Source of the DNA: Okeania sp. KiyG1
GTDB taxonomy: Bacteria; Cyanobacteriota; Cyanobacteriia; Cyanobacteriales; Microcoleaceae
Direction of reading: 5' to 3'
Assembly (NCBI RefSeq): GCF_014132355.1
Contig: NZ_BLZO01000094.1
Span: 1-64,000 of the forward strand
Length of the DNA: 64,000 bases
Position numbers and translations under genes: made by a program. The notes beneath the pieces are model-generated. The model worked only from the letters and a program-made list of their open reading frames with translations, was not told the origin of the DNA and did no database searches. How positions within the stretch are numbered: position 1 is the first letter of the stretch; each line of letters opens with the position of its first letter. Below are positions 7,438-53,524 of the stretch, in pieces.

Positions 7438-7841
7438 AATTTATAATTAATTTTAATTTTAGATAGAGTCAGAATTAGTAGATAATTATACAAGTTTTGA
7501 ATCTTTTGCATTTTAAATATTATCTTCCAGAATGTCAATAGTATGTTGACAAAAAGAAGCCACGGCAGGGATTTTTAATACAGATTAGACGAAATGAAGA
7601 AAAAAAGATTAATACTATTTTTTTATCCTCTGGTTATTTAGAAATAATATACATCTCCAAAAATTAAAAATAAAATCAATTCTTATCCAGAAATTATCAA
7701 TTATTCCCTCCTGGGAGGGTTCAGGGTGGGTTCCCTGTTCCCTGTTCCCTGTTCCCTGTTCCCTCTTTTCTGGAGATGTTTAATGAACAAATCTTCTCAA
7801 ACAAAAATCAGGGGAGGATTTAGCCTGATTTTAGATGATTC
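7438..7841. other. Intergenic region with minor repeats
   Basis: AT-rich. It holds CCCTGTT heptamers (about 7725-7760) and a GGGAGGGTTCAGGGTGGG segment of the dispersed repeat class. I see no gene and no confident promoter. Confidence 0.5.
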
Positions 7842-8022
7842 ATATCATGTCCGGTAGCATCGATCTTGTATAGCAAAGGTAAGGAAGAGGGAAGAAGGAA
7901 GAAGGAAGAAGGAAGAGGGAAGAGGGAAGAGGAAGAAAGGCTACCCTCGCAAGAAAAAAACCATTATTTCCTGTAGATATTCACCCTTGGGTTTACACAA
8001 ACGATATAAACGGACATGATAT
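7842..8022. mobile_element. Small element with 12-bp perfect inverted ends ATATCATGTCCG
   Basis: The left end is ATATCATGTCCGGTAGCATCG and the right end is the complement of ATATCATGTCCGTTTATATCG, giving 12 identical bases and then partial pairing. The inside is AAGGAAGAGGG-type low complexity plus TTTCCTGTAGATATTCACCC. Single ends of the same family are at about 330-352 and 59948-60005. No coding capacity and no convincing target duplication were seen. Confidence 0.65.
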
Positions 8023-8399
8023 CAGGCCATAGTTAAAGAGTGGTAATTTGACAGCGGGAGCATTGACTTAATCAGAGAATAACGATATAATACGCTCTTA
8101 AGCATACTTTTAGACAGGCTGCACTTACTCAGGAATGAAATCCATTAGAACAAAGCTGAAACTTAATAATAAACAGAAAACTCTGATGGCTCAACACGCA
8201 GGCTATTCACGCTGGTGTTATAACTGGGGTTTAAGTCTGTGGAATGCTGTAGTTCGAGATGGTTATAAGCCAAATGCCCGTAAGCTTAGAGAGGTTTTTA
8301 CTAATCACACCAAACCCCTCTACCCCTGGATGAAAAACCTCTCATCTAAAGTTTATCAATATGCTTTTATTAACTTGGGTGAAGCATTTAAAAGGTTTT

Positions 8400-37972: not shown

Positions 37973-38647
37973 GTGGAGGACCAATTACAAAATCTAATTA
38001 CCCAAATAAAACAATATCAAAATCCGAGTCCAGAACGCCAGAAAGCTATTAATCGTCTATTGATATTAATTCAACAACTCCCTGGACTATATAGTTCGTC
38101 CCACCAGGATTATCTGGAGGCTTTTAATCGGACATTAGAATGGGTCTGCAAAAACATTCAAAGTTTTGAACCTCGGCCTCCTTCTTGGGAAAGAAGCTTT
38201 GTTGTCTGGATTAATGGTTATCTGAAATGGCGTATCCAAGACCTATATACCCCAGATAATAGATATGAAAGTTTGGATAAACTTATTAGTAATGAAGGAG
38301 AAAAACTAACAACTTTAGGAGAAATTTTACCAGCTAATAGTCTAAGTTTACTGGAACAAAAAATTGCTGAATTACAGAAAGCAAAACGTCAAAGACAAGG
38401 TGAATCTGTGAGGCAATATATTGAGACAGACCCAGAAGAAAAGCTCAGGTCTTCTCATCCGAAAAAACATCCTGAATGTAATTGTCAAGTCTTAGCTATT
38501 CAGTTAAATTTTACAGAACCACCAAATAAAATCTCTGATATTTGTAAAGAAATAAATATTAGTAAACAAACTGTTTATTCCCACTGGAAGCGCAGATGTA
38601 TTCCGTTATTAAGAGAAATCGCTAATCAATTTGGAGAAGAATTATGA
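37973..38647 (+). CDS. Sigma-70-like (ECF-type) regulatory protein
   Basis: 224 aa with a GTG start; AGGAG lies about 10 nt upstream. The N-terminal half is helical with a region-2-like segment (WERSFVVWINGYLKWRIQDLY). The C-terminus has a region-4-like HTH (ISDICKEINISKQTVYSHWKRR). The middle is Lys/Gln-rich and includes HPKKHPECNCQ. Such sigma-like proteins precede DUF1822 and CHAT genes in other filamentous cyanobacteria (from memory). Its stop overlaps the next start as ATGA, so the two are translationally coupled. I infer that it controls the downstream CHAT locus, possibly as a non-canonical sigma factor. Confidence 0.72.
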   Translation: MEDQLQNLITQIKQYQNPSPERQKAINRLLILIQQLPGLYSSSHQDYLEAFNRTLEWVCKNIQSFEPRPPSWERSFVVWINGYLKWRIQDLYTPDNRYESLDKLISNEGEKLTTLGEILPANSLSLLEQKIAELQKAKRQRQGESVRQYIETDPEEKLRSSHPKKHPECNCQVLAIQLNFTEPPNKISDICKEINISKQTVYSHWKRRCIPLLREIANQFGEEL

Positions 38648-39585
38648 ATCTGAATTTTTCACAAGCATTAAAAGTTTTTTTGACTGCAGAAGCTCATAGT
38701 TATGCAGAGCTATTTGCAGCAGAACAAGCTACTCCTGAAAAAGGAAAACAAGTTTATCTAAATACTCTTGCTGTTGTGGCAGTTCAAACTTATTTAAAGT
38801 GTTTAGGTATTCAGACCGCGATTCATCAAGGTGATTGTTGGCATCCTGGTTCAAGAACAATATTTAATGTGGCTGATTTAGTTTTACCAAATATTGGCAA
38901 AGTGGAATGTCGTCCGGTATTTCCTGGTGAAAAAGAATTGTTTTTGCCTCCAGAGGTTATTGATAACCGCATCGGTTATATAGCAGTTCTATTTGAGGAA
39001 AATTTAAACCAAGTACAAATATTAGGATTTGTTTCTGCGAGAAATGTTGATGAGTTTCAAGATTCTATTCCCCTCACACAAATAGAATCTTTGGATGCTT
39101 TAATTGATGAAATTGATTGGTGTCAAAAGTGGGTGAATTTACGTCGGTGGTTTGAAGGTTTTTTTCCGGCAGAATGGCAAAGTTTACAGTCACTATCTAC
39201 ATCTACATCTACAAGAAGTTTAAGAGTTTCAAAGGATAGTATTTCTCAATCTCCAACGGATGATGTAAGTATTAGTTGTGGAAAAATTATTAATTGGGGT
39301 AGTGGAGTAAATGAAAAATCTACAGAATTAGCGGTAAAATTGACGGATAGATTTGAGGAGGAAATAGATATTTGTGTGCGACTTTCTAGTACGAATAAAA
39401 TTCCATATTTACCTCCTGGTTTACGAGTACAAATATTGGATGAATCTGGTAATTCTTGTATGGAAGCTGAAGCTAGGGAAGCGGATGATTGGATACAATT
39501 AGAATTTGGTTGTCAACCTCAAGAACAATTTACTATAGAAATGAGTTTAAATGAGCAAATAATTAGGGAAAATTTTGTAGTTTAA
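38644..39585 (+). CDS. DUF1822 family protein
   Basis: 313 aa. Typical DUF1822 features are FPGEKELFLPPEVIDNRIGY, then AVLFEENLNQVQILGFV, with a preceding conserved CWHPGSRTIFNVADLVLP. The C-terminal 80 residues form a beta-rich segment (EIDICVRLSSTNKIPYLPPG, LQILDES-like strands, WIQLEFGCQ). Soluble, no signal peptide. The function of the family is unknown. The start overlaps the stop of the sigma-like gene by ATGA. Conserved pairing with sigma-like and CHAT genes suggests it serves as an adaptor or anti-sigma-like partner, which is inference. Confidence 0.85.
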   Translation: MNLNFSQALKVFLTAEAHSYAELFAAEQATPEKGKQVYLNTLAVVAVQTYLKCLGIQTAIHQGDCWHPGSRTIFNVADLVLPNIGKVECRPVFPGEKELFLPPEVIDNRIGYIAVLFEENLNQVQILGFVSARNVDEFQDSIPLTQIESLDALIDEIDWCQKWVNLRRWFEGFFPAEWQSLQSLSTSTSTRSLRVSKDSISQSPTDDVSISCGKIINWGSGVNEKSTELAVKLTDRFEEEIDICVRLSSTNKIPYLPPGLRVQILDESGNSCMEAEAREADDWIQLEFGCQPQEQFTIEMSLNEQIIRENFVV

Positions 39586-39617: not shown

Positions 39618-39900
39618 TAGCTGTTAGCTGTCAGCTCTCGATGCATAAAAGAGGGGGTTTAAATGAATATAGACTTTAACTTGAAAGCCAGCTTTTGTAG
39701 TAAATTTAATTCTGACTCAATTAGTAAAGCTTTTATCTAATACCAATTTCATAAAATATTGCAAAGCGTGAGGACACAGGGAACAGGGAACACCTGAACT
39801 GTGACCAGTGAAAGAAAAACATAAATATTAAAGAGGAAAAAAGGTGGCAATTTTATAATTTATGGAATTTATAATTTTTCTTTTAGGAATAAATCACAAA

Positions 39901-40610
39901 TTAAGATGTAACTGCCTTTTTTGAATTTGGTATCAAACTAAAAAAGTAATAGCTGATGGCTGAATGCTGATGGCTGAATGCTTAAAAATTAAGATGTAAC
40001 TGCCTTTTGAATTTGGTATCAAACTAAAAAAAGTAATAGCTGATGGCTGAATGCTGATGGCTGAATGCTTAAAAATTAAGATGTAACTGCCTTTTTGAAT
40101 TTGGTATCAAACTAAAAAAAGTAATAGCTGATGGCTGAATGCTGATGGCTGAATGCTTAAAAATTAAGATGTAACTGCCTTTTTTGAATTTGGTATCAAA
40201 CTAAAAAAAAGTAATAGCTGATGGCTGAATGCTGATGGCTGAATGCTTAAAAATTAAGATGTAACTGCCTTTTTGAATTTGGTATCAAACTAAAAAAAGT
40301 AATAGCTGATGGCTGAATGCTGATGGCTGAATGCTTAAAAATTAAGATGTAACTGCCTTTTTGAATTTGGTATCAAACTAAAAAAGTAATAGCTGATGGC
40401 TGAATGCTGATGGCTGAATGCTTAAAAATTAAGATGTAACTGCCTTTTTGAATTTGGTATCAAACTAAAAAAGTAATAGCTGATGGCTGAATGCTGATGG
40501 CTGAATGCTTAAAAATTAAGATGTAACTGCCTTTTTGAATTTGGTATCAAACTAAAAAAGTAATAGCTGATGGCTGAATGCTGACGGCTGAATGCTTAAA
40601 AATTAAGATT
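39901..40610 (+). repeat. Tandem array of eight 87-90 bp units upstream of the CHAT gene
   Basis: Units begin TTAAGATGTAACTGCC at 39901, 39989, 40076, 40164, 40254, 40342, 40429 and 40516, with a last partial unit at 40603. Each contains TTGAATTTGGTATCAAACT, an A-run of varying length, AGTAATAGC and a doubled TGATGGCTGAATGC. Units differ only in T-run and A-run length and one base (GACGGC in the last). The array ends 14 bp before the CHAT start, so it forms the 5' leader of that gene. Confidence 0.93.
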
Positions 40611-40623
40611 ATCGCAGATAAAT

Positions 40624-41898
40624 ATGGAAGTTATTAAAATTATTAAGATTAAACTTATAGATAGTGGTGAAAATGGGTTTCATGTGATTTTAAATTCAAT
40701 AGGTGCTAATTTTGAGCCTATTGATGGTTTTTTACCATGTCTACCTGCTGAATTAGAAAAATCTTTTAATCAATGGCAGTCAGCTTATTCTCAGTTAGAA
40801 GATGTGAGAAAAGTAGCAACTCGTATTAGTCCACAATCAGTAGTTAATTATTCTAGTTATGAGGAAAAAGAACAACTTAAAATCACTCTTAATCAATGGT
40901 TGGATAGTGGCGATCTTAATTGGCAACCTGTACGAGATGAATTAATTTCTGTGTTAACTTATCTAGGAAATTCTGATTCAGAAATTCGGCTATTTTTGGA
41001 TATTAAAAATCCTAATTTATGTCGCATTCCTTGGCAAGAATGGAATTTATTTCAGTCTCGTTTCCCTCAAACAGAAATTGCTATTCGAGTTCGAGGTAAA
41101 GGAAAGTTTAGACGGCCTCGTAAATCCTCAAAAGTAAGAATTATTGCCATAGTCGGCAAGAGTGATGGTATTAATACACAATTGGATTTAGAAGTAATTC
41201 AAAAGTTAAAAGAAAAGGGTGCAGAAGTAAGATTTTTAAATCAACCAACACAGGAGATTTTATCTGATACTTTGCGGGAGGAACCTGGTTATCATATATT
41301 GATTTTTGCAGGCCATAGTTGTAGTAAAGAAGATGGTTCAATTGGTTGGATATATTTGAACGACCGGGATAAATTAAGTATTAAAGAGTTTAAAAATTCT
41401 TTGAGATATGCAATAGATAATGGGTTGCAGTTGGCAATTTTTAATTCTTGTGATGGTTTGGGTTTAGCAAATCAGTTGGCCCAGCTTGGTTTATCACGAA
41501 TTATTGTCATGCGAGAACCTGTTCCTGACCTGGTGGCAGTGAAATTTTTAGAGTATTTTTTTGCAGAATTTGCGAATAATAAATCTCTGTTTAAATCTAT
41601 GAAAATAGCTCGAGGAAGATTAGAACATTTTGAGTCTGAATATCCAGGGGCGATGTGGTTACCTACTCTTTGTATTCAAGAAACAGCTTTGTCTCATCCT
41701 CTGAGTTGGCAGCAGTTAATTTATCCCAATTTCTGGCAGGCATCAATCAATAAATTTAAGCTTCCTTTGGGACTAACAGCAGGAATTTTGTTGATAATTT
41801 TGGCGATAAATTTAGTTAAAAATAAATTCACTGAAACTAAAACAACCGGGATACAACCAGAAATTCATAAAAATATTAGTCAGGGGAAAAGTTGTTAA
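40624..41898 (+). CDS. CHAT-domain (caspase-like) protease with C-terminal transmembrane helix
   Basis: 424 aa. The N-terminal part (1-130) is a helical domain (LPAELEKSFNQWQSAYSQLEDVRK). The CHAT domain (about 140-365) carries the predicted His-Cys dyad: His in ILIFAGHSC and Cys in LAIFNSCDGLG, with CRIPWQEWNL and YPGAMWLPTLCI as flanking family motifs. One membrane helix follows (LGLTAGILLIILAINLV, about 382-400) and then a short outside tail ending ISQGKSC. CHAT proteases are caspase-fold peptidases. The stop overlaps the TTG start of the solute-binding gene by 7 nt. In the related decayed locus at 46.5 kb the CHAT-TM part is fused to its binding domain, so I infer this pair forms one CHAT-in / sensor-out receptor. 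Confidence 0.87.
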   Translation: MEVIKIIKIKLIDSGENGFHVILNSIGANFEPIDGFLPCLPAELEKSFNQWQSAYSQLEDVRKVATRISPQSVVNYSSYEEKEQLKITLNQWLDSGDLNWQPVRDELISVLTYLGNSDSEIRLFLDIKNPNLCRIPWQEWNLFQSRFPQTEIAIRVRGKGKFRRPRKSSKVRIIAIVGKSDGINTQLDLEVIQKLKEKGAEVRFLNQPTQEILSDTLREEPGYHILIFAGHSCSKEDGSIGWIYLNDRDKLSIKEFKNSLRYAIDNGLQLAIFNSCDGLGLANQLAQLGLSRIIVMREPVPDLVAVKFLEYFFAEFANNKSLFKSMKIARGRLEHFESEYPGAMWLPTLCIQETALSHPLSWQQLIYPNFWQASINKFKLPLGLTAGILLIILAINLVKNKFTETKTTGIQPEIHKNISQGKSC

Positions 41899-43217
41899 TT
41901 TCTTCCGATAAAAATCCGGCAAAAGAAGAAGGAATAGAACAATTTTATAATGGTAACTTTGCTCAGGCGATCGCTAAATTTCGCCAATCTCTCCAAGTCA
42001 ATAAAAATGACCCGGAAATTTTGATTTATTTGAATAATGCAATTGCTCAAAAAAAATCTGATACTAATATTGGGCAAAAGGTAGAAATTGCAGTTAGCGT
42101 TCCTATTAGTCAGGAATCAGATATTTCCCAGGAAATTTTGCGAGGAGTTGCTCAAGCTCAAAGCGAATTTAATTGTGGTTTACCGGAAATTTCTCTGGCG
42201 ATTAAAAATCCTGAAAATAAACTAAATTGCTCTGGTAGTTTCAATGGTAAATTTTTAAAAGTTACTATTGCTGATGATGAATATCTACCAGAAACAGCAG
42301 AAAAAATTGCTCAAGCTTTAATAGCAAAAGAAGAAATTATTGCCGTTATTGGTCATTCTTCTAGTGATATGACTTTACAAGCAGGAGAGATTTATAACAA
42401 AGCAGAATTAGTAGTAATTTCTCCTACTAGCACTTCTATTCTTTTGAAAAATTTAGGTAAATTTGTCCTGAGAGTTGCACCAAATGACAGTCTAGCAGCT
42501 CAAGCTCTATTCAATTATTTGGAGCGACAAAATTGGGCAGATAAAAAAATAGCAGTTGCCTATGTACCTGGTAATAGTTATAGTCAGTCTTTAGCTAAAG
42601 AATTTAATAAATTACTGCCAGAAAAATTCGTATATAAGTGCAATATTTCCTCCGGGAATTTTAGTGCCAGTGACTGTGTGAAAGAAGCACAAAATCGAGG
42701 TGCAAAAATAATGCTTTTAGTCCCTGCTACAGACAGAACTTTGAGTAATGTTATCGGCATAATTAATAATGCTAAAGGGTTGAAATTATTGGGTGGAGAT
42801 TCTGTTTATAATCCTAGGGTATTAAAAGATGCTGGCCAACAAGCAGACCGAGGAAATTTAACCCTTGCTATTCCTTGGCACCGTCATCCTAACTCCCAAT
42901 TTAGTCAAACAGCTCAAAAGTTTTGGAATGCGGAAATTAATTGGCGTACTACTACATCTTATGATGCCACTCAAACTATTATTAAAGCTGTAGATGAAAT
43001 GATAGGTAATTATTCTCGTAAACAGTTACAAAGTATTTTATCTAGTCATGATTTTTATCTGGAAGGAGTAACAGGAAAAATTAGATTTGGGGAGTTAGGC
43101 GATCGGCAGTTTCTCGAGAAAGATAAACCAGTATTAGTTCAGGTAAAACCTAATGCTAAATCTGGAAAATATGAATTTGTAATTCTGGAGGAGGGGAGTG
43201 AGGGAGTGGGGGAGTAG
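41892..43217 (+). CDS. Type 1 periplasmic solute-binding-fold protein coupled to CHAT
   Basis: 441 aa from a TTG at 41892 with AGGGG 5 nt upstream; it overlaps the CHAT stop. The start has a single TPR-like helix pair (EEGIEQFYNGNFAQAIAKF, DPEILIYLNNAI), followed by a Leu/Ile/Val-binding-protein-like fold (QEILRGVAQAQSEFNCG, AVIGHSSSDMTLQAG, VVISPTSTS, KKIAVAYVPGN, LLVPATDRT, LLGGDSVYNPR, TSYDATQTIIKA, EGVTGKIRF). It has no signal peptide, so alone it would be cytoplasmic; reading its frame back through the overlap gives SGEKLLISSDKN, which aligns with the anchored paralogue at 44429. This suggests an original CHAT-TM-binding fusion. The last residues (EGVGE) and the stop come from a GGGGAGTA microsatellite. 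Confidence 0.82.
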   Translation: MLISSDKNPAKEEGIEQFYNGNFAQAIAKFRQSLQVNKNDPEILIYLNNAIAQKKSDTNIGQKVEIAVSVPISQESDISQEILRGVAQAQSEFNCGLPEISLAIKNPENKLNCSGSFNGKFLKVTIADDEYLPETAEKIAQALIAKEEIIAVIGHSSSDMTLQAGEIYNKAELVVISPTSTSILLKNLGKFVLRVAPNDSLAAQALFNYLERQNWADKKIAVAYVPGNSYSQSLAKEFNKLLPEKFVYKCNISSGNFSASDCVKEAQNRGAKIMLLVPATDRTLSNVIGIINNAKGLKLLGGDSVYNPRVLKDAGQQADRGNLTLAIPWHRHPNSQFSQTAQKFWNAEINWRTTTSYDATQTIIKAVDEMIGNYSRKQLQSILSSHDFYLEGVTGKIRFGELGDRQFLEKDKPVLVQVKPNAKSGKYEFVILEEGSEGVGE

Positions 43218-43300
43218 GGGAGTAGGGGAGTAGGGGAGTGTGGGGAGTGTGGGGAGTATGGGGAGTATGGGGAGATGGGGAGATGGGGAGACCTGGAGTG
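43195..43300. repeat. GGGGAGTA / GGGGAGTGT microsatellite overlapping a stop codon
   Basis: Runs from inside the end of the solute-binding gene into the spacer. The TAG stop at 43215-43217 is part of a GGGAGTAG unit. The paralogue at 45919 lacks the array and ends LEEGSSK. Confidence 0.85.
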
Positions 43301-43413
43301 GAAAAAACTGTGATTAGGAAAGAAACCGAAATACATCCTTTTTCTTTTAATTGGAGCTGAGGTAATTAGAACTGACATAATTAGATAATTTGTCCCAAGT
43401 TCAATCAATACTA

Positions 43414-43687
43414 TTACCGAAATATTGTTATTTAAAGCCTCCCCTTTTAAGGGGATAATAAATAGACATCTGGTGAAAAAGATATAGATTTTTTGCAGGA
43501 GTAGGCAACAGGCAACAGCTCCGAAAGGCAACAGGTAAGATATTTTTATGAAAAAGGCATGAAAAAGGATTTTTTAGGGTAAATTTTTCCTATCCTTAGA
43601 CTGCTCTAATTAAAATATTTGTTTTCTGGAGATGTCTAATCAAAATTTTCCTGTTCGTCAATCCTCATTCTTTTCAAGGAGAGGTAA
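43414..43687 (-). mobile_element. TTACC...GGTAA small element with an insertion
   Basis: Inverted copy: TTACCGAAATATTG, AAAGCCTCCCCTTTTAAGGGG, then about 150 bp of foreign sequence, then the other half (CAATCCTCATTCTTTTCAAGG) and GAGGTAA. Non-coding. Confidence 0.6.
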
Positions 43688-44129
43688 TTCGCGCATTCTA
43701 AATTCGCGCATTCTTGAAGGTTGCAAAACTGGCAAATTATCCTGCATCTACAAGGCTGATATTTTAACTAAAACTGATAGCTGAAAGTTGTTAAACTAGA
43801 GCTATTTCAAGTAGTTATTAATATCATGTATCTTTAAACAATCACAATAAAAATTTTAGAGAATAGGGAAAAGGGAAAAGGGAACAGGGAGAATTGATCA
43901 GAGAAAACATTTTTATTATGGCTAATTAATGAGACTTGATATAAGTCACAATTATTTGCCACCTCACTTAACGAAGTCAGAAGTCAGAATGAATAGGTTT
44001 GATACCATTTCCTATGTAGTAATTTATCTTTTTCGTCCAATAGATATTTCCTACAAATTATTTTAATACTGCTTATTATTTGTAGCATTCTTTTTTCAAA
44101 TTGGTATAATACCCAATACCCAATACCTA
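43688..44129. other. Intergenic spacer
   Basis: AT-rich with short repeats (GGGAAAA heptamers near 43865-43885) and a TTTTCAAATTGGTATAATACC motif resembling the end repeated at 58285. No gene supported. Confidence 0.5.
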
Positions 44130-44365
44130 GGGTTTGCTGAAAAAGTCTTATGGGTGAGGGTAGGAGACAGGAGACAGAAGACAGAAGAAATGGGAATGAG
44201 CGAGGAGGTAGGAGCAAGAATTGTAAGAATGATTTTTCTGCCCAACTATGCCCCTAAAATACTAACTTTTTGAGTGTTTTAGACTGAAACAGGTACACTT
44301 TTTAAAGGCCATAAAAAGGCTAAAACCTTTATCTGTAAATGCTTTTATATTTAATCAGCAAGCCC
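44130..44365 (+). mobile_element. MITE-like element with GGGTTTGCTGA ends and 6-bp TACCTA duplication
   Basis: Terminal repeats GGGTTTGCTGA and TCAGCAAGCCC differ at one position. TACCTA flanks both sides (44124-44129 and 44366-44371). 236 bp, non-coding. A second copy is at 46060-46284, with TAATTA on both sides. Shared interior: GGTAGGAGACAGGAGACAG and CCCAACTATGC. The transposase source is not in the window. Confidence 0.85.
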
Positions 44366-44428
44366 TACCTAACACCTAAATTAATTGTTAAACCATTACC
44401 AATAAACCTATTACTTATTATCTATAAA

Positions 44429-45919
44429 ATGACTCAACAAAATATTTGGTATACATTTCTTCAGCGAGCCAAACTACCCTTAGAATTGGCAGGATTATCC
44501 ATTGCAGCTATTCTGCTGCTCAAAGATGTAGGCCAATTAATTAAAACCATAATTCCAGAGATTCCCAAAATTAATAGTACCATTGGCGAAAAAACCATGT
44601 TTCCTTCTGGGAAAATATCCTCAGAAAAAAAATTAGGAATGGAAGAATTCAACAACAAAAGATTTAGTAGTGCTATTTACCAATTCCGCAAATCTCTGAA
44701 TAGGGATAAAAATGACCCAGAGACAGTTATTTTTTTGAACAATGCCATTGCTAAACAAACAAAAATACTCAATCAAACTGGAGAAATATTACAAATAGCA
44801 GTCAGTATTCCTGCTGCTGGAGAACCTAATATTGCCCAGGAAATTTTGCGAGGAGTTGCTCAACTTCAAAGTGAATTTAATTGTGGTTTATCTGAAATTT
44901 CTCTAGCAATTAAAGATACTCAAAGTCAACTAAATTGCCAAGGTAGCTCCAATAATACATTTTTACAAGTCACCATTACTGACGATCGATATAAACCAGA
45001 AACAGCAAAACAAATTGCCGAATATTTAGTAAAAAAACGAGAAATTCTTGCCGTCATAGGTCATTATTCCAGTGAAATGACTCTCCAAGCAGGACAGGTT
45101 TATAACAAACATAAATTAGTAGTAATTTCTCCTACTAGCACCTCAACTAGATTATCTAACTTTGGCAAATTTGTATTTAAAATTCCCCCTAGCGATCAAA
45201 TTGCAGCCCAAACCTTATTTAACTATTTGAATCAGGAAATTTTTCTAGATAAAAATGTAGCAGTAGCTTATGTACCAAATAATGAATATAGTGAATCTCT
45301 TACTAGAGAATTCGAGATGCTATTGAAAATGAAAAAATTTGTCCATAAATGTTATCTTGATGCTGGAAATTTCAGTGCCCAAGACTGTGTTGAACAGGCA
45401 AAAAATCAAGGTGCTGAAGTAATGTTATTAGTTCCAGCAACTGACATAACTTTGACTAAAGCTATTGGAGTAATTGATAATGCTAAAGGATTAGAATTAA
45501 TAGGGGGAGATTCTATCTATAATTATCGAGTAGTAAATGATGCTGGAGAAGAAGCAGCTCAGAATAATTTGACAGTTGCTATTCCTTGGCATCGTCACCC
45601 TAACTCTCAATTTAGTCAAACAGCTCAAAAGTTTTGGAATGCGGAAATTAATTGGCGTACTGCTACATCTTATGATGCTACTCAAACTATTATTAAAGCA
45701 GTGGATGAAATGGCGGGAAATTACTCTCGTCAAAAATTACAAAGAATCTTGTCTAGTCCTGATTTTTTAGTAGAAGGAGTAACTGGAAAAATTAGATTTA
45801 CTGAGTTAGGCGATCGCCAGTTTCTCGATACAGATAAATCAGTATTAGTTAAGGTAAAACCTAATGCTAAATCTGGCAAATATGAATTTATTATCTTGGA
45901 GGAGGGAAGCTCAAAATAA
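44429..45919 (+). CDS. Membrane-anchored type 1 solute-binding-fold protein without CHAT
   Basis: 496 aa from MTQQNIWYTFLQ; an in-frame ATG at 44339 lies inside the neighbouring small element and is unlikely to be native. One N-terminal helix (LELAGLSIAAILLL) anchors an outside domain: TPR-like pair (LGMEEFNNKRFSSAIYQF, DPETVIFLNNAI), then the Leu/Ile/Val-binding fold (QEILRGVAQLQSEFNCG, AVIGHYSSEMTLQAG, VVISPTSTS, AYVPNNEYSES, LIGGDSIYNYR, EGVTGKIRF). It is a close paralogue of the protein at 41892, but its CHAT part is absent or replaced by a short cytoplasmic start. It could be a decoy receptor, a co-receptor for the CHAT protein, or a truncated relic. It ends LEEGSSK. Confidence 0.82.
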   Translation: MTQQNIWYTFLQRAKLPLELAGLSIAAILLLKDVGQLIKTIIPEIPKINSTIGEKTMFPSGKISSEKKLGMEEFNNKRFSSAIYQFRKSLNRDKNDPETVIFLNNAIAKQTKILNQTGEILQIAVSIPAAGEPNIAQEILRGVAQLQSEFNCGLSEISLAIKDTQSQLNCQGSSNNTFLQVTITDDRYKPETAKQIAEYLVKKREILAVIGHYSSEMTLQAGQVYNKHKLVVISPTSTSTRLSNFGKFVFKIPPSDQIAAQTLFNYLNQEIFLDKNVAVAYVPNNEYSESLTREFEMLLKMKKFVHKCYLDAGNFSAQDCVEQAKNQGAEVMLLVPATDITLTKAIGVIDNAKGLELIGGDSIYNYRVVNDAGEEAAQNNLTVAIPWHRHPNSQFSQTAQKFWNAEINWRTATSYDATQTIIKAVDEMAGNYSRQKLQRILSSPDFLVEGVTGKIRFTELGDRQFLDTDKSVLVKVKPNAKSGKYEFIILEEGSSK

Positions 45920-45947
45920 TTAATAATTAATAATTAATAATTAACAA

Positions 45948-46298
45948 TTACCTCTCCTTGAAAAGAAGAGGATTTATTCAAAGAAAAATTTTTCCTTCTT
46001 TATCCCTTTAAAGGAGAAGCTTTAAACCTTATATATGTTAATGAAAACCGCTATAATTAGGGTTTGCTTATGGAAAATCTTTTTGCTGGGGTAGGAGACA
46101 GGAGACAGGAGAAATGGGAATTTAGAAGAGGTAGGAGAAAGAATTGTCTCAAGATTGTTGTGCCCAACTATGCGCCTAAAATACGCTCCTTTTTGAGCAT
46201 GAAGAGCCGAAAACCAAGGTATTACAGACCTAAAAAGGCTAATGTCTTTATATGTCAATGCTTTTAGATTTAATCAGCAAGCCCTAATTATTCGGTAA
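45948..46298 (+). mobile_element. TTACC...GGTAA small element carrying a nested second element
   Basis: Left half TTACCTCTCCTTGAAAAG to GGCTTTAAACC; right end AATTATTCGGTAA at 46286-46298. The halves are separated by the GGGTTTGCT element (46060-46284). Preceded by TTAATAA heptamers. Confidence 0.8.
46060..46284 (+). mobile_element. GGGTTTGCT-ended MITE nested in another element, 6-bp TAATTA duplication
   Basis: 225 bp. Ends GGGTTTGCT and AGCAAGCCC (one mismatch); TAATTA at 46054-46059 and 46285-46290. Homologous to 44130-44365. Its position inside the TTACC element shows it transposed later. Confidence 0.88.
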
Positions 46299-46321
46299 CT
46301 AGCACAATTTTTGTATTTCAT

Positions 46322-46455
46322 ATTACTTCTTCCTTCTTACTTCTTACTTCTTACTTCTTCCTTCTTACTTCTTCCTTCTTACTTCTTACTTCTTCCTTCT
46401 TACTTCTTCCTTCTTACTTTTGACTTTTGACTTTTGACTTTTGAATTTTGACTTC
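46322..46455. repeat. CTTCTTACTTCTTCC / TTTTGACTT microsatellite
   Basis: Many copies of ACTTCTTCCTTCTT followed by TTTTGAC heptamers; it ends 16 bp before the start of the decayed CHAT gene. Confidence 0.85.
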
Positions 46456-46470
46456 CTTTAGGATGCAACT

Positions 46471-48643
46471 ATGAGTATTGTTAAGATTAAACTTCTCGAA
46501 ACTGAAGCCTCTGGATTTTATGTAACTCTCACTGCTAACGATGGTAAATTTGATTCTCTTGATGGTTTTTTACCAGCTTTACCACCAGAATTAGAATCAT
46601 CATTGAGTAATTGGCAGTTAGCTTATAACCAACTAGAAAAAGTTCGTAAAATTTCTACTAGAATTAGTCCCAAAAAAACTATTTCTTTCTCCAGTTCAGA
46701 ACAAAGAAAACTGGTAAAAATCATATTAATAAATGGCTAGATTCTGACGATAGTCGATGGCGACCAATCCGAGAAGAATTAATTTCTGTATTTAGCTCAT
46801 TGCAAAACTCTGAATCAGAAATTCGTGTATTTCTAGATGCGAAAAATCCTAAACTACGACGACTACCTTGGCAAGAATGGGGTTTATTAGCATCTCGGTT
46901 TCCTCAAGCAGAAATTGCTATGAGAGTCAGAGGAAAAGGTGCATTAAAACCTTCTCCTAATCATGGCAAACTCAGAGTGCTTTTAGTCGTAGGAAAAAGT
47001 GCCGGAATTAATACCGATTTAGATGTAGAAATAGTGCGAAAATTACAGACAAAAGGAGCAGAAATTATATGCTTAAAACAGCCCAATAGAGAAAAATTTG
47101 CTAATACTCTCAGAGAAGAATTAGGTTATCATATCTTTATTTTCTCCGGTCATAGTCGCAGTGAAGAAGATGGTACAATTGGCTGGATTTCTCTCAACGA
47201 CCGTGACGAATTAAGCATTGACGAATTCAAGAATTCTCTCAGATATGTAATAGATAAAGGATTACAATTAGCAATATTTAACTCCTGTGATGGTTTAGGA
47301 TTAGCGAGTCAATTAGCTCAGTTAAGTTTGCCTCGTAGTATTGTCATGCGAGAACCCATACCTGATGAAGTAGCAGTCAAATTTTTAGAATATTTTTTGA
47401 GGAGTTTACTAAAAATAAATCCTTATTTAGTTCTGTTCATGCTGCCAGAGAACGTCTGGAATATTTTGAATCTGATTATCCAGGAGCAATGTGGTTACCA
47501 ACAATATGTATTCGAGAGTCAGCATTAGATAAACCTTTAACTTGGCAACAAATTACTGGCAACTTAATCCAGACTCCCCAAACTTCATTACTGAATAAAA
47601 AATTTTATTATTATTAGGAGCTATAGGTTTATTGATTATTGGTGGAGTAATTTTCTCGCTGATTAGTGGAGAAAAAACACCAGAACAAGATGTCGTAAAT
47701 TCTCCCTGTCCGCAACAACCCATCCAAAATAAACCCCCCACAGAAAATCAAATCAAACCTGTCAGATGTCTTGCTTATGTTTCTGATGTTCCTAATGGTA
47801 AATGGCTACATGGAGCTAGTACAACTTGGGCACCAATTCGCGCTAAAATCAATCCTAAAATTCAAGCAATCTTTCCAGAATTTCAGTTAAATTACAGACA
47901 ACATCCTAGCTTACCTCCTGGTTCAGGAACTGGAATTAAAATGCTATTAGAAGGTCAAATTTCTTTTGCTGAATCTTCACGACCTGTGACAGATACTGAA
48001 TTGCAAATCGCCAGAAATAGAGGATTTCAACTAAAGCAAATTCCTGTGGCTATGGATGGCATTGCTATAGTAGTTCATCCAGAACTTGATGTGGCAGGTT
48101 TAACCTTAAAACAACTCCAAGAAATCTATACTGGTAAGATTCAAAATTGGAGTGAAATAGGAGGACCTAATATTGAAATTATTCTCTATACTCGTCCTTT
48201 GAATAGTGGTACAACTCCTTTCTTTCAAGAAAACATTTTAGGTAACAAAGAATTTGGTGAAAATGTAGCTTTGGTTCCCACTACTACTCAAGCTTTACGA
48301 GAGGTAACTGCAAATAAAGGAGGAATTTATTTTGCCACAGCTTCAGAAATAATTCCTCAGTGTGGTGTAAAACCTTTATCAATTGCCTATCGATCGGGAG
48401 GTACTTTTATTCCTCCTTATAAAGGTGAATTTGTGCCGCCAGAAAATTGTCCTGAACAGCGTAACCAACCAAATTTAGAAGCATTTGAAAATGGAACATA
48501 TCCGATTTCGAGACGGTTATTTGTGATTGTGAAAAAAAGATGGTTCTTTTGATGAAAAAGCTGGAGAAGCTTATGGAAATTTACTGTTGACAGATGAAGG
48601 GCAAAAATTAATTGAAGAAGCTGGATATAGTCCCATTCGTTAA
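46471..48643 (+). pseudogene. CHAT - TM - PstS-like binding-domain fusion with four frameshifts
   Basis: Joining frames gives one protein of about 720 residues. It has the N-terminal helical domain (LPPELESSLSNWQLAYNQLEKVRK), CHAT with His (IFIFSGHSR) and Cys (LAIFNSCDGLG), one helix (GAIGLLIIGGVIFSLI), and a type 2 phosphate-binding-protein-like domain: GSGTGIKMLLEGQISFAESSR, then GIAIVVHPELDVAGLTLKQL, IYTGKIQNWSEIGG, RPLNSGTTPFF, ATASEIIPQCG, ending EEAGYSPIR. Single-base indels lie at A-run 46716-46720, T-run 47393-47398, T-run 47603-47606 and A-run 48532-48538. CHAT lies inside and the binding domain outside the membrane. Either a pseudogene, or an intact gene with sequencing errors in homopolymers. 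Confidence 0.82.
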
Positions 48644-49230: not shown

Positions 49231-50147
49231 ATGTATCTGGAAATAGTTAAGCAGACTGAAAAAAACTTGTTTTGAAAAATAAATTATCTTATGGTTATGT
49301 CTTTTTCTTCGCTTTTCCCTTGACAGGAATATCGTTGCTTTCGAGTTTAGCATTTTTACGGGGGATGGGAGTCATTAGCGTTTCATGTCAACGAGTCGAA
49401 CCAACTCAAGTTAATTGTCAGGTTAATCACTCAGAGTATTTAGGTTTAACCCAAGGATCTTCTACTTCCTTGACTCGGGTAACAGAAGCCAAATTTAATT
49501 CACGGAAGAAGAAAAATAGTGATGGTGAAACTTATTTTGATTATTTTGTTACCCTAGTAACTCAAAAAGGAAAAGAAGTTGTCAGTTGGCAGGGTAATTC
49601 ATATATCAATGGTGTTAAGGGTTACCCTCAAGAAATGAATGAAATGGTGGCAAAAATTAACACATTTATCAATAATTCAACTCAACCATCTCTTCTTATT
49701 CAGTACGATCTACGTTGGAAATTGGAAAACCTGCTATTTTTACCTATCTGCATTATCTTTCTTGGAACAGGAGTTTTACTTCTGTATATACTTTTGTATC
49801 TAAAAATCATGACACTTAACAAAAGTGAACGACGATTAACCTACAAAATCTATTCTTTATTGGGTATCAAAACCAAACACTATTCTTTTGCCCAAATTCA
49901 AGCATTAATTCTAGAAAGTTATACAGATAGTGATGGAGATACATCCTATAGCTTAAAGGTAGTATTACCAGCAAACAATCAAAATGATTGGTGGGAAATC
50001 CCTTTAATATTACCAGCAGAAAATCAAAATGACCAGTGGAAAATCCCTTTAATATTACATGATTCTGACATTTACAAAGTTAAAAAATTAGCTAATGTTG
50101 TTAGTGATTTTATCGATAAACCCTATAAAGAACAGTCAAATAAGTAA
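49231..50147 (+). pseudogene. Two-helix membrane protein, array copy 1 (frameshift near start)
   Basis: The ATG at 49231 (GGGAG upstream) starts like the other copies (EIVKQTEK), but an A-run at 49259-49265 changes frame before KNKLSYGYVFFFAFP. The rest is intact: helix 1 (about 20-45), outside domain beginning SCQRVEPTQVNCQV, helix 2 (LLFLPICIIFLGTGVLLLYILLYL), then an inside domain (LNKSERRLTYKIYSLLGIKTKHYSFAQI). It carries an internal duplication of about 15 residues (NQNDWWEIPLILPA and NQNDQWKIPLILHD) not found in the others. An internal TTG at 49272 could start a shorter protein. Function unknown; it could also be intact if the A-run is a sequencing error. Confidence 0.7.
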
Positions 50148-50417
50148 TCATTTTTTTTGAATGCTTTGGGTGAGTTTAGTAGAACGGAAATGTCTATACA
50201 TTTAAAGTGTTAAGTTTTGTAAAGGATACTGGTAATATCTGTAAAATTGCCATGTTTTGTTGATGAATAATACAGTAAGGCGCTTTGATTTCTGACGATT
50301 TATTCCTAGCTAGATCGAATTTTGCATAAATTTTTCGGTAGTGCCTGATAAATGATGGGAACCTTCTCTATCCGTAGATATATGGTTGTCCAATTAAGGT
50401 ATTACAGGAGAAATTAT

Positions 50418-51250
50418 ATGGAAATAGTTAAGTGTACTGGAAAAGAAATTGTCTTAAAAGATGAATTATCTACTCGTTTTGCGGCCTCGTTGGTTTTTGT
50501 TTTTCCCTGGATAGGAATACCATTGTTGATTAGTTTAATAATTTTATCGGAGATGGGAGTAATTAAAGCTTCATGTCAACGGGTCGAACCAACTCAAGTT
50601 AATTGTCAGGTCAATAGCTCAAAGTATTTAGGTTTAATCCAAGGTTCTTCTACTTCCTTAACTCGGGTAAAAGAAGCCAAATTTAATTCCCAAAATGATA
50701 GTGATGGCAGTAATTATTTTGTGACATTGGTAACTCAAACAGGAAAAGAAGTTGTCAGTTGGCAGGGTAATTCATATCAAGAAATGAATCAAATGGTCGC
50801 AAAAATTAACACATTTATCAATAATTCAAACGATCCATCTCTGCTTATTCAATACGATCTACGTTGGAAAGAGAAAAATCTGGTAAATTTAGCTATCTGC
50901 ATTCCCTTTATTGCAATAGGAATCTTACTTCTATACGCAGTTTTTTATCTAAAAACACTAATACTCAATAAAAGTGAACGACAATTAACCTACAAAGTAT
51001 TTTCTTTATTGGGTAGTAAAACCAAACACTATTCCTTTGCCCAAATCCAAAAATTAATTCTAGAAAGTTATACAAATAGTGATGAAGATGAAAATAAATC
51101 CTATCGCTTAGAGTTAGTCTTACCAGGAGAAAATCTAAATCATCAGTTGAAAATAACTTTAAAATATCATGATAATATCAAAGAATTAAAAAATCGGCCA
51201 CAATGTTCTCCGATTTTATCGAGATACCCTATCAAGAAGTGTCAAATTAG
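50418..51250 (+). pseudogene. Two-helix membrane protein, array copy 2 (frameshift near end)
   Basis: ATG at 50418 with AGGAG 7 nt upstream. The protein MEIVKCTGKEIVLKDEL matches copies 3 and 4 until the A-run at 51188-51193. After it the original frame (ATMFSDFIEIPYQEVSN, stop 51248-51250) is lost and the actual reading ends at 51278 with SNHFFLAFG. Domains as in the other copies: helix 1, SCQRVEPTQVNCQV, helix 2 (LAICIPFIAIGILLLYAVFYL) and the KSERQLTYK domain. It is 10 residues shorter in the outside loop (NDSDGSNYF). Probably still makes a stable protein with an altered tail. Confidence 0.72.
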
Positions 51251-51523
51251 TAATCATTTTTTTTTAGCGTTTGGGTGAGTTTAGTAGAATGGAAATGTCT
51301 ATACATTTAAAGTATTAAGTTTTGTAAACGATGCCGATAATATCTGTAAAATTGCCATGTTTTGTTGATGAATAATACAGTAAGGCGCTTTGATTTCTGA
51401 CGATTTATTCCTAGCTAGATCGAATTTTGCATAAATTTTTTGGTAGTGCCTGATAAATGATTGGGAACCTTCTCTATCCGTAGATATATGGTTGTCCAAT
51501 TAAGGTATTACAGGAGAAATTAT

Positions 51524-52384
51524 ATGGAAATAGTTCAGCAGAATGAAAAAGAACTTGTCCTAAAAGATAAATTATGGATCTTGTTGTTTTTTGTTTTTCC
51601 CAGTATAGGAATACCAGTGTTTACTCCTCCAATGATTGTATTACAGAAGGATTTAGTAATTAAGGCTTCGTGTCAACGGGTTGAACCAACTCAAGTTAAT
51701 TGTCAGGTCGATAGCTCAAAATATTTCGGTTTAATCAAAGATTCTTCTACTTCCTTAACTAGGGTAACGGAAGCTAAATTTAATTCACAGAAGAAGAAGG
51801 ATCGTAATGGTGACACTTATTTTGATTATTTTGTTACCCTAGTAAGTCAAACAGGAAAAGAAGTTGTCAGTTTGCAGGGTAATTCATATATCGATGGTTT
51901 TAAGGGTAACCCCCAAAAAATGAATCAAATTGTGGCAGAAATTAACACATTTATCAATAATTCAACTAAGCCATCTCTGTTTATTCACTACGATCTACGT
52001 TTTAAATGGAAAAACCTGCTACCTTTAGCTATCAGCATTACCTTTATTGCAATAGGAATCTTAATTGTAGCAGTTTTGTATCTAAGAACACTAATACTTA
52101 ACAAAAGTGAACGACAATTAACCTACGAAGAATCTTCTTTATTGAATACTTATACCAAACACTATTCTTTTGTCCAAATCAAAGAATTAATTATAGACAT
52201 TTATACAGATAGCGATGGAGATAAATTCTGTAGCTTAAAGATAGTATTAGTATTACCAGCAGAAAATCAAAATCATCAGCGGGAAGTCACTTTAATAAAA
52301 GGTTTTGACATTGAAAAAGTTAAAAATTTAGCTAATACTGTGGCTGATTTGATCGAGATACCCTATCAAGAACTGTCAAATTAG
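51524..52384 (+). CDS. Two-helix membrane protein, array copy 3
   Basis: 286 aa; ATG with AGGAG 7 nt upstream in a spacer almost identical to that of copy 2. Helix 1 (LLFFVFPSIGIPVFTPPMIVL), an outside domain with two conserved Cys ten residues apart (SCQRVEPTQVNCQV), helix 2 (LAISITFIAIGILIVAVLYL) and an inside domain (LNKSERQLTYEESSLLNTYTKH, then SFVQIKELIIDIYTDSDGD). The family is common in cyanobacteria without known function; the inside part resembles a small beta-rich PH-like domain (inference). This copy is the most diverged around LLNTY. Confidence 0.78.
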   Translation: MEIVQQNEKELVLKDKLWILLFFVFPSIGIPVFTPPMIVLQKDLVIKASCQRVEPTQVNCQVDSSKYFGLIKDSSTSLTRVTEAKFNSQKKKDRNGDTYFDYFVTLVSQTGKEVVSLQGNSYIDGFKGNPQKMNQIVAEINTFINNSTKPSLFIHYDLRFKWKNLLPLAISITFIAIGILIVAVLYLRTLILNKSERQLTYEESSLLNTYTKHYSFVQIKELIIDIYTDSDGDKFCSLKIVLVLPAENQNHQREVTLIKGFDIEKVKNLANTVADLIEIPYQELSN

Positions 52385-52657
52385 TAATTATTTTTTTTAA
52401 GAGCTTGGGTGAGTTTAGTAGAACGGAAATGTCTATACATTTAAAATATTAAGTTTTGTAAACGATGCCGATAATATCTGTAAAATAGCCATGTTTTGTT
52501 GATGAATAATACAGTAAGACGCTTTGATTTCTTACTATTTATTCCTAGCTAGATCGAATTTTGCATAAATTTTTCGGTAGTGCCTGATAAATTATTGGGA
52601 ACCTTCTCTATCTGTAGATATATGGTTGCCCAATTCAGGTATCACAGGAGAAATTAT

Positions 52658-53524
52658 ATGGATATAGTTAAGCAGACTGAAAAAGAACTGGTTTTTAAGA
52701 ATAGATTATCTTATGGTTTTGCCTTTATCTTCGCTTTTCCCTGGACAGGAATTTCGTTGCTTTTTACTTTAGTAGGTTTATGGCAGATAGGAGTAATTAA
52801 GGTTTCGTGTCAACGAGTCGAACCAACTCAAGTCAATTGTCAGGTCAATAACTCAGAGTATTTAGGTTTAATCCCATATTCTTCTACTTCCTTGACTCGG
52901 GTAGCAGAAGCTAAATTTAATTCGAGGAAAAGTCAGGATAGTGATGGTGACACTTCTTTTGATTATTTTGTTACCCTAGTAACTCAAACAGGAGAAGAAG
53001 TTGTCAGTTGGCAGGGTAATTCATATTCCAATGGTATTCATGGTTCCCCTCAAGAAATGAATGAAATGGCAACAAAAATTAACACATTTATCAATAATTC
53101 AACTGAGTCATCTCTGCTTATTCAGTACGATCTAGGCTGGAAAAAGGAAAACCTGATACCTTTAGCTATCGGCATTACCTTTCTTGGAATAGGAGTTTTA
53201 CTTCTATACGCATCTTTTTATCTAAAAATCATTACACTTAACAAAAGTGAACGACAATTAACCTACAAAATCTATTCTTTATTGGGTATCAAAACCAAAC
53301 ATTATTCCTTTGCCCAAATCAAAGAGTTAATTCTAGACAGTTATACAGATAGCGATGGAGATAAATCCTGTAGCTTAGAGTTAGTATTACCAGCAGAAAA
53401 TCAAAATCATCAGTTTAAAATTCCTTTAATATTATATGATTCTGACATTGAAAAAGTTAAAAAATTAGCTAATGTTGTTGCTAATTTTATCGATAAGCCC
53501 TACCAATATTTATCAAATAAGTAA
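52658..53524 (+). CDS. Two-helix membrane protein, array copy 4
   Basis: 288 aa; ATG with AGGAG 7 nt upstream. MDIVKQTEKELVFKNRLSYG is close to the repaired copy 1. Helix 1 (FIFAFPWTGISLLFTLVGL), SCQRVEPTQVNCQV, helix 2 (LAIGITFLGIGVLLLYASFYL), LNKSERQLTYKIYSLLGIKTKH, SFAQIKELILDSYTDSDGD, and a tail KLANVVANFIDKP. It gives the cleanest version of the family in the array. Each copy has its own repeated spacer and ribosome-binding site, so each may be expressed separately. Confidence 0.8.
   Translation: MDIVKQTEKELVFKNRLSYGFAFIFAFPWTGISLLFTLVGLWQIGVIKVSCQRVEPTQVNCQVNNSEYLGLIPYSSTSLTRVAEAKFNSRKSQDSDGDTSFDYFVTLVTQTGEEVVSWQGNSYSNGIHGSPQEMNEMATKINTFINNSTESSLLIQYDLGWKKENLIPLAIGITFLGIGVLLLYASFYLKIITLNKSERQLTYKIYSLLGIKTKHYSFAQIKELILDSYTDSDGDKSCSLELVLPAENQNHQFKIPLILYDSDIEKVKKLANVVANFIDKPYQYLSNK

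Follow-up and report, generated by a model that had tools for sequence, protein, structure and literature searches.

The 64,000-nucleotide stretch of DNA analysed here (the window) lies on contig C94 of the 11-Mb draft genome of Okeania sp. KiyG1, a marine filamentous cyanobacterium, and carries three loci (A, B and C), concerned with caspase-like CHAT protease modules and solute-binding domains, 3' of a gene for a sigma-like protein and a gene for a DUF1822 protein, all on the + strand. The first gene of this conserved cassette (37973..38647) encodes a protein resembling extracytoplasmic function (ECF) sigma factors (TIGR02937, E 0.0046; RpoE 2q1z, E 0.022), and the DUF1822 gene that follows (38644..39585; PF08852, 5.8e-71) begins with an ATG in a 4-nt overlap with the sigma-like gene's stop. 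Immediately before locus A comes a tandem array of 8.1 near-perfect copies of an 87-nt unit (39898..40609, Tandem Repeats Finder). The first half of locus A (40624..41898; PF12770, 4.6e-13) comprises an N-terminal region, a CHAT domain with the motifs GHS and NSCDG, and one transmembrane (TM) helix; the second half (41892..43217; Peripla_BP_6, 3.1e-19), in a different frame, comprises TPR-like hairpins followed by a type 1 solute-binding protein (SBP) domain. Locus B (44339..45919; Peripla_BP_6, 1.4e-20) is a TM-TPR-type 1 binding domain gene without CHAT, for which orthologues support a start at about 44429; counted from there, a hydrophobic helix lies at residues 16-34. Locus C (46471..48643) is a CHAT-TM-PstS gene in five frame segments, delineated by tblastn with the fusions of the fetched loci L043 and L048; its CHAT part lies at 46800..47528 (PF12770, 1.1e-7), and the end of its TM segment and its PstS-like type 2 binding domain at 47632..48552 (PF12849 (PBP_like_2), 2.8e-32; TIGR02136, 2.7e-39). 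An earlier account made from the letters of the window (the sequence-only reading) had described three related loci with these domains, order, dyads and single helices, which family scores and motifs confirm, and had described B as the same binding domain with its own anchor and no CHAT, which is indeed open in one frame. The cassette is far beyond chance, being conserved and syntenic in named Okeania and Microcoleaceae loci, and family scores together with synteny rule out chance or misannotation as the source of the cluster. The closest named relatives at the locus are the Okeania sp. metagenome-assembled genomes (MAGs) of L039 and L047, both with 94% identity across the CHAT part.

The CHAT sequences of the window, which contain GHSC/GHSR and NSCDG, scored 49.7 and 32.1 bits against a PF12770 cut-off of 24, and Pfam on the window and its relatives gave CHAT rather than C14, which rules out a C14 metacaspase (PF00656). 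The binding domains (PF13458 and PF12849, ABC-type solute-binding types 1 and 2) both exceed their cut-offs in window proteins in the Pfam scan; against the PstS family model TIGR02136, locus C scores 135 bits, below the cut-off of 206.6. Both dyad residues, His and Cys, are present without exception (21 of 21) in the aligned CHAT modules, in an alignment that takes in 13 of 20 fetched loci (L101, L104, L106 and L110-L113 being left out), and the dyad motif pattern was found in 22 of 25 fusions; it missed L110, L111 and L112, and reading by eye shows GHS and NSCDG in L110. The related modules are continued by SBP, PstS, CHASE2, NACHT or nSTAND1 domains and so have highly variable C-termini; a CHAT-CHASE2 protein is encoded in the same genome as the window. 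No Pfam family matches the region before CHAT above cut-off. The fused protein was modelled, as the sequence-only reading had proposed: in a fold search the constant module matches double caspase folds, including region 395-750 of Csx29/TPR-CHAT, but the mean predicted local distance difference test (pLDDT) score is 52, the N-terminal region and the SBP being weak, and the strands and helices seen at residues 1-155 are modelled at low pLDDT. A profile of the CHAT module searched against the PDB reached SAVED-CHAT only at E 0.2, ranked below three chance-looking matches. The CHAT module is probably a double caspase fold, and its putative kinship with SAVED-CHAT rests on the predicted fold. That CHAT could be a non-catalytic scaffold, with signalling by conformational change or oligomerisation alone, would agree with a fold match to a sigma regulator that has a CHAT-like region and with the lack of a demonstration of proteolysis by this family in the literature found, but is improbable given the invariance of both dyad residues.

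Genes that encode CHAT, one TM helix and a binding domain in a single open frame were found in other genomes by the search that the sequence-only reading had suggested. The L039 equivalent of gene A is open over 872 residues stop-to-stop; L047 has an 877-residue fusion; L043 has both an 859-residue CHAT-SBP and a 716-residue CHAT-PstS frame, the latter running to the end of the fetched stretch; and the more distant L048, from a Xenococcaceae MAG, has a 711-residue CHAT-PstS frame. An 857-residue CHAT-TM-SBP query had some match in 155 of 386 genomes of the phylum, and matches spanning both halves in one stop-free frame numbered at least 18 in at least 17 of the 386; a 710-residue CHAT-PstS query had some match in 194 genomes and a full-length CHAT-TM-PstS fusion in at least five. 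These fusion counts are lower bounds from the best two candidates scored per genome. One of the five CHAT-PstS fusions carries a stop flag, the stop sitting at the end of its 745-residue open frame, and the domain order of all 23 fused rows is that of the window. CHAT-free genes with an SBP sensor adjoin CHAT-TM-SBP genes in L107, L110, L111 and L112, as B does here, and PstS-type genes without CHAT occur near CHAT-PstS in L114, L115 and L116. The Okeania sp. KiyG1 genome has 65 CHAT matches at E<=0.001, fragments included; on its contig C91 (L119:12271-17040), 12 copies of a 182-nt unit lie between two CHAT genes and overlap several small matches to the CHAT end.

The sequence-only reading had presented A and C as continuous fusions in the window by joining frames; both change frame, which rules out a single-frame CHAT fusion there, and B is the only one of the three loci that is intact. 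In A the change falls between the helix and the binding domain (the first segment ends at 41889 and the second starts at 41883); over its first 422 residues the single-frame L039 fusion shares 94% identity with the first half, and its residues 421-855 match the second half. In C, tblastn with the L043 and L048 fusions gives four frame changes among the segments 46471-46728, 46716-47399, 47393-47614, 47647-48537 and 48539-48640. It is fairly probable that A and C are decaying pseudogenes in this strain, that only the anchored binding protein B is expressed and that the receptor has been lost here, a view compatible with the other readings considered below. It is favoured by the one frame change in A and the four in C, by four intact genes of 1447-1839 residues in the same window, which weigh against general sequencing error, and by disruption of other Okeania-type copies (CHAT in L046, B in L040 and L045), whereas an assembly or homopolymer error is possible as judged from the assembly sequence alone, and the ratio of nonsynonymous to synonymous substitution rates (dN/dS) between the window and its relatives is 0.14-0.35 in seven comparisons of receptor segments of A, B and C. 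Because of these ratios, the breakage of A and C would be either recent or due to assembly. In the same kind of comparison the sigma-like gene has a high dS (0.87) against L043, and the DUF1822 gene gives 0.65 against L039 on few changes. With both fusion genes broken, the system in this genome has probably ceased to operate through A and C, leaving B as a surviving anchored binding protein. In L039 (8611-9746), L043 (downstream of gene A) and L040 (8424-9880), the interval between genes A and B contains additional tandem copies of the SBP gene end, up to about 75-89 codons long and accompanied by a repeat spacer; they are 93-100% identical to the parent gene end and may be a footprint of local recombination.

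The sequence-only reading also held that an outside ligand controls an inside protease across one helix; the single helix is supported, along with features consistent with the proposed orientation, while the topology itself is predicted. A simple hydropathy scan of 25 fusions, which include near-copies and are not independent counts, found exactly one helix between CHAT and sensor in 24, L118 having three hydropathy segments of which two are adjacent. Net positive charge is higher on the CHAT side in 20 of the 25, and the cysteines beyond the helix are even in number in 23. The same TM-SBP sensor is joined to a Ser/Thr kinase domain in seven of eight scanned proteins, and the eighth is a C14 caspase-nSTAND1-WD40 protein; the eight were chosen by open-frame length, a ninth fetched locus being left unscanned. 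Kinases use ATP inside the cell, so their possession of the same TM-SBP module supports a sensor outside. The alternative in which the binding domain lies on the same side of the membrane as CHAT and senses a cytoplasmic ligand could draw on the charge bias, which is opposite in four of the 25 fusions, L039 among them, and tied in one, but is highly improbable in view of the one helix between the domains, the paired cysteines and the kinase fusions. CHAT is thus predicted to lie inside and the binding domain outside. A 1902-residue protein with C14 caspase, nSTAND1, WD40 and Peripla_BP_6 domains is encoded at L126:1919-7624 and resembles the metacaspase-ANF_receptor protein reported in Nostoc punctiforme.

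In sequence comparisons the closest relatives of the type 1 sensor are amino-acid-type binding proteins (4mlc/4q6b, 3hut, 3ip5 and others), and those of the type 2 sensor are Sll0540 and PstS proteins; the predicted ligands are amino acids and phosphate, respectively. Exchange of sensors is evident from two trees. In a tree of 35 CHAT modules (L111 and L112 being left out of the 20 fetched fused loci), five Okeania-type CHAT-SBP rows fall within a 15-row clade that also contains the full set of ten rows labelled CHAT-PstS (support 100/100) and in which they form a nine-row group with the four Okeania-type CHAT-PstS rows (100/99), apart from the other CHAT-SBP rows; L041 is labelled PstS by synteny, its sensor lying beyond the fetched stretch. 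In a tree of 46 binding domains (L104, L111 and L112 being left out of 15 SBP loci), the A sensors of Okeania type form a group with those of the CHAT-free neighbour B (nine rows, 99/97), the fused sensor of L042 is placed among the B sensors, and at least four changes of the CHAT label are required on branches with good support. A single clade of all sampled CHAT-SBP is rejected by approximately unbiased (AU) tests (p 2.4e-39 for the CHAT tree and 2.4e-46 for the SBP tree). The sensor of A is 67% identical to that of B versus 33-36% to those of four other CHAT-SBP proteins, and the CHAT of A is 62% identical to that of the L043 CHAT-PstS protein versus 33-39% to the CHATs of the same four. 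Phylogeny therefore supports the re-pairing of protease and sensor modules, with the long branches of some rows leaving deeper placements unsure, and agrees with the description of the binding domains as interchangeable, as does their recurrence on CHAT in the genomes counted above. By parsimony, the Okeania CHAT-SBP gene would have gained a sensor related to that of neighbour B in place of PstS; this direction depends on parsimony, and the outgroup of the CHAT tree is not one side of any branch.

Among the 20 of 23 fused genes that were fetched with their surroundings, the sigma-like and DUF1822 genes are both upstream of 12, DUF1822 alone is upstream of five and neither is upstream of three (one at a contig end), so that DUF1822 is a neighbour at 17. 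Both genes accompany eight of the nine Okeania-type loci, DUF1822 being in two pieces in L044; the contig of the ninth, L041, begins inside the receptor gene. In the Okeania sp. KiyG1 genome DUF1822 occurs at 12 places, seven of them within 5 kb of a CHAT place, the places on contigs C138 and C139 scoring alike and possibly being one locus. On C138 a TRADD-like_N-DUF1822 protein is encoded about 3.5 kb from a CHAT-nSTAND1 gene (L035:2707-3669 and 7473-8357); no TRADD-N association is seen at the window locus. The window sigma-like protein scores 16.6 bits against the TIGR02937 (sigma70-ECF) cut-off of 42.9, four of 16 aligned relatives match that family at E<=0.01, and the RpoE structure cited above is the best PDB match in the profile search. 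The relative in L109 scores 20.6 bits against NF041236, the CASP-sigma family of type III-E, whose cut-off is 100; the window protein does not match this family. Farther downstream in the window, at 49272-53524, are four tandem paralogues of about 300 residues that are membrane-protein-like by eye; the first and fourth, the two that were scanned, have no Pfam family above cut-off.

A mechanism can be proposed from what is observed, namely the domains present, the single-frame fusions of relatives, the invariant dyad, the operon and the sensor swapping, and is on balance favoured: the cassette would encode a sigma-like factor, a DUF1822 protein and transmembrane, ligand-gated CHAT receptors that act on DUF1822, on the receptor or on both to free or license the sigma-like factor. 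The N-terminal CHAT module would stay in the cytoplasm, with one helix crossing the membrane; a periplasmic binding domain of the amino-acid type (Peripla_BP_6) or the PstS type would sense a solute; binding would alter protease activity through a conformational or dimer change; the likeliest cytoplasmic target would be the DUF1822 protein encoded alongside, the receptor itself, or both; and cleavage would free or license the sigma-like factor, with a presumed transcriptional output. Several findings weigh against this proposal besides the broken copies of A and C, the minority of opposite charge biases and the low confidence of the model. In the fold list Csx29 shares its rank with gingipains and separases, so the match does not point specifically to sigma control; the fusions of L048, L104 and L118 have no detected sigma or DUF1822 gene in the fetched stretch; the sigma-like protein is below every family cut-off, and four of ten relatives scanned singly have no family at E<=0.1; and DUF1822 has no significant likeness to Csx30 or to any anti-sigma factor in a profile search or in a fold search with a poor model. 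A DUF1822 protein homologous to Csx30 or to anti-sigma factors is unsupported by these searches, which amounts to absence of evidence only. A conflict or cell-death receptor, in which triggered CHAT would cut many proteins or assemble a death complex and the sigma-like and DUF1822 proteins would be accessory, is somewhat unlikely: the sensors here are of the nutrient type and the operon carries a sigma-like gene, but in the same genome related CHAT modules are fused to NACHT, nSTAND1 and pentapeptide repeats, and the TRADD-like_N-DUF1822 protein is also encoded there, and the text of PMC8195603 sets EACC2/TRADD-N systems in apoptosis and immunity networks, which is the setting favoured in print. 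Rather doubtful is the idea of a membrane counterpart of Craspase in which an outside nutrient directly gates an inside CHAT protease that cuts DUF1822 as the inhibitor of the sigma-like factor, new stimuli being gained by swapping in binding domains from neighbouring anchored binding proteins.

If the predicted topology and output hold, the system would be a bacterial receptor in which a single protein combines ligand gating with a caspase-like protease, and its own operon would supply both a candidate substrate and a reporter; what bacterial caspase homologues respond to and cut would become directly testable, and the control of sigma factors by CHAT, as demonstrated for Craspase, would extend to membrane signalling. 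The sensor exchange in the trees illustrates a route by which receptors of this kind could acquire new inputs.

The plan of a caspase-like protease with an outside sensor, which the sequence-only reading did not know to be described, is already known because of two sets of precedents. Cyanobacterial metacaspase-ANF_receptor and metacaspase-CHASE2 proteins (PMC2853523, 2010; PMC3501461, 2012) likewise join a caspase-fold protease to an extracellular binding or receptor domain, and a protease-inside, receptor-outside reading was given for the CHASE2 case in 2012; they differ in having Peptidase C14 instead of CHAT, in being single examples and, in the passages covered, in being without a sigma/DUF1822 operon. 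The operon of sigma-like gene, DUF1822 gene and receptor matches that of the EACC2-caspase proteins of PMC8195603 (eLife 2021), the source found in the search for literature joining DUF1822 and CHAT, whose text describes a constant N-terminal alpha+beta plus caspase module, variable and sometimes extracellular C-termini with TM helices, and neighbouring ECF sigma and DUF1822 genes in the majority of their TRADD-N-free neighbourhoods, and proposes a stimulus-induced autopeptidase action with transcriptional output. That text, its figures and source data lying outside the comparison, names CHASE2 and "several small-molecule-binding domains" and not SBP or PstS. No literature pairing CHAT with periplasmic or ligand-binding sensors was found, figures and supplements not being covered, and the paper examined on CHAT in cyanobacteria with caspases has, in the part covered, CHAT only in other settings. 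Cyanobacterial Ser/Thr kinases with Peripla_BP_6 have the same sensor module but a kinase output, and the DdvA transmembrane anti-sigma factor (PDB 8rot, 8rw5) differs in being, by its title, an anti-sigma factor itself. Craspase (Science 2022, PMC10028731), in which the Csx29 protease is described as releasing a sigma factor by cutting its inhibitor, shares with the present cassette a CHAT protease encoded with an ECF-like sigma factor and a third protein (Csx29-Csx30-CASP-sigma), but is RNA-guided and activated by Cas7-11 where a membrane sensor is predicted here, and DUF1822 has no detected likeness to Csx30. What is new here is the presence of SBP and PstS sensors on CHAT, the sensor swap and the resemblance in fold between the constant module and double caspase folds, Csx29 among them, together with a concrete hypothesis for the protease, DUF1822 and the sigma-like factor, suggested by likeness to Csx29-Csx30-CASP-sigma.

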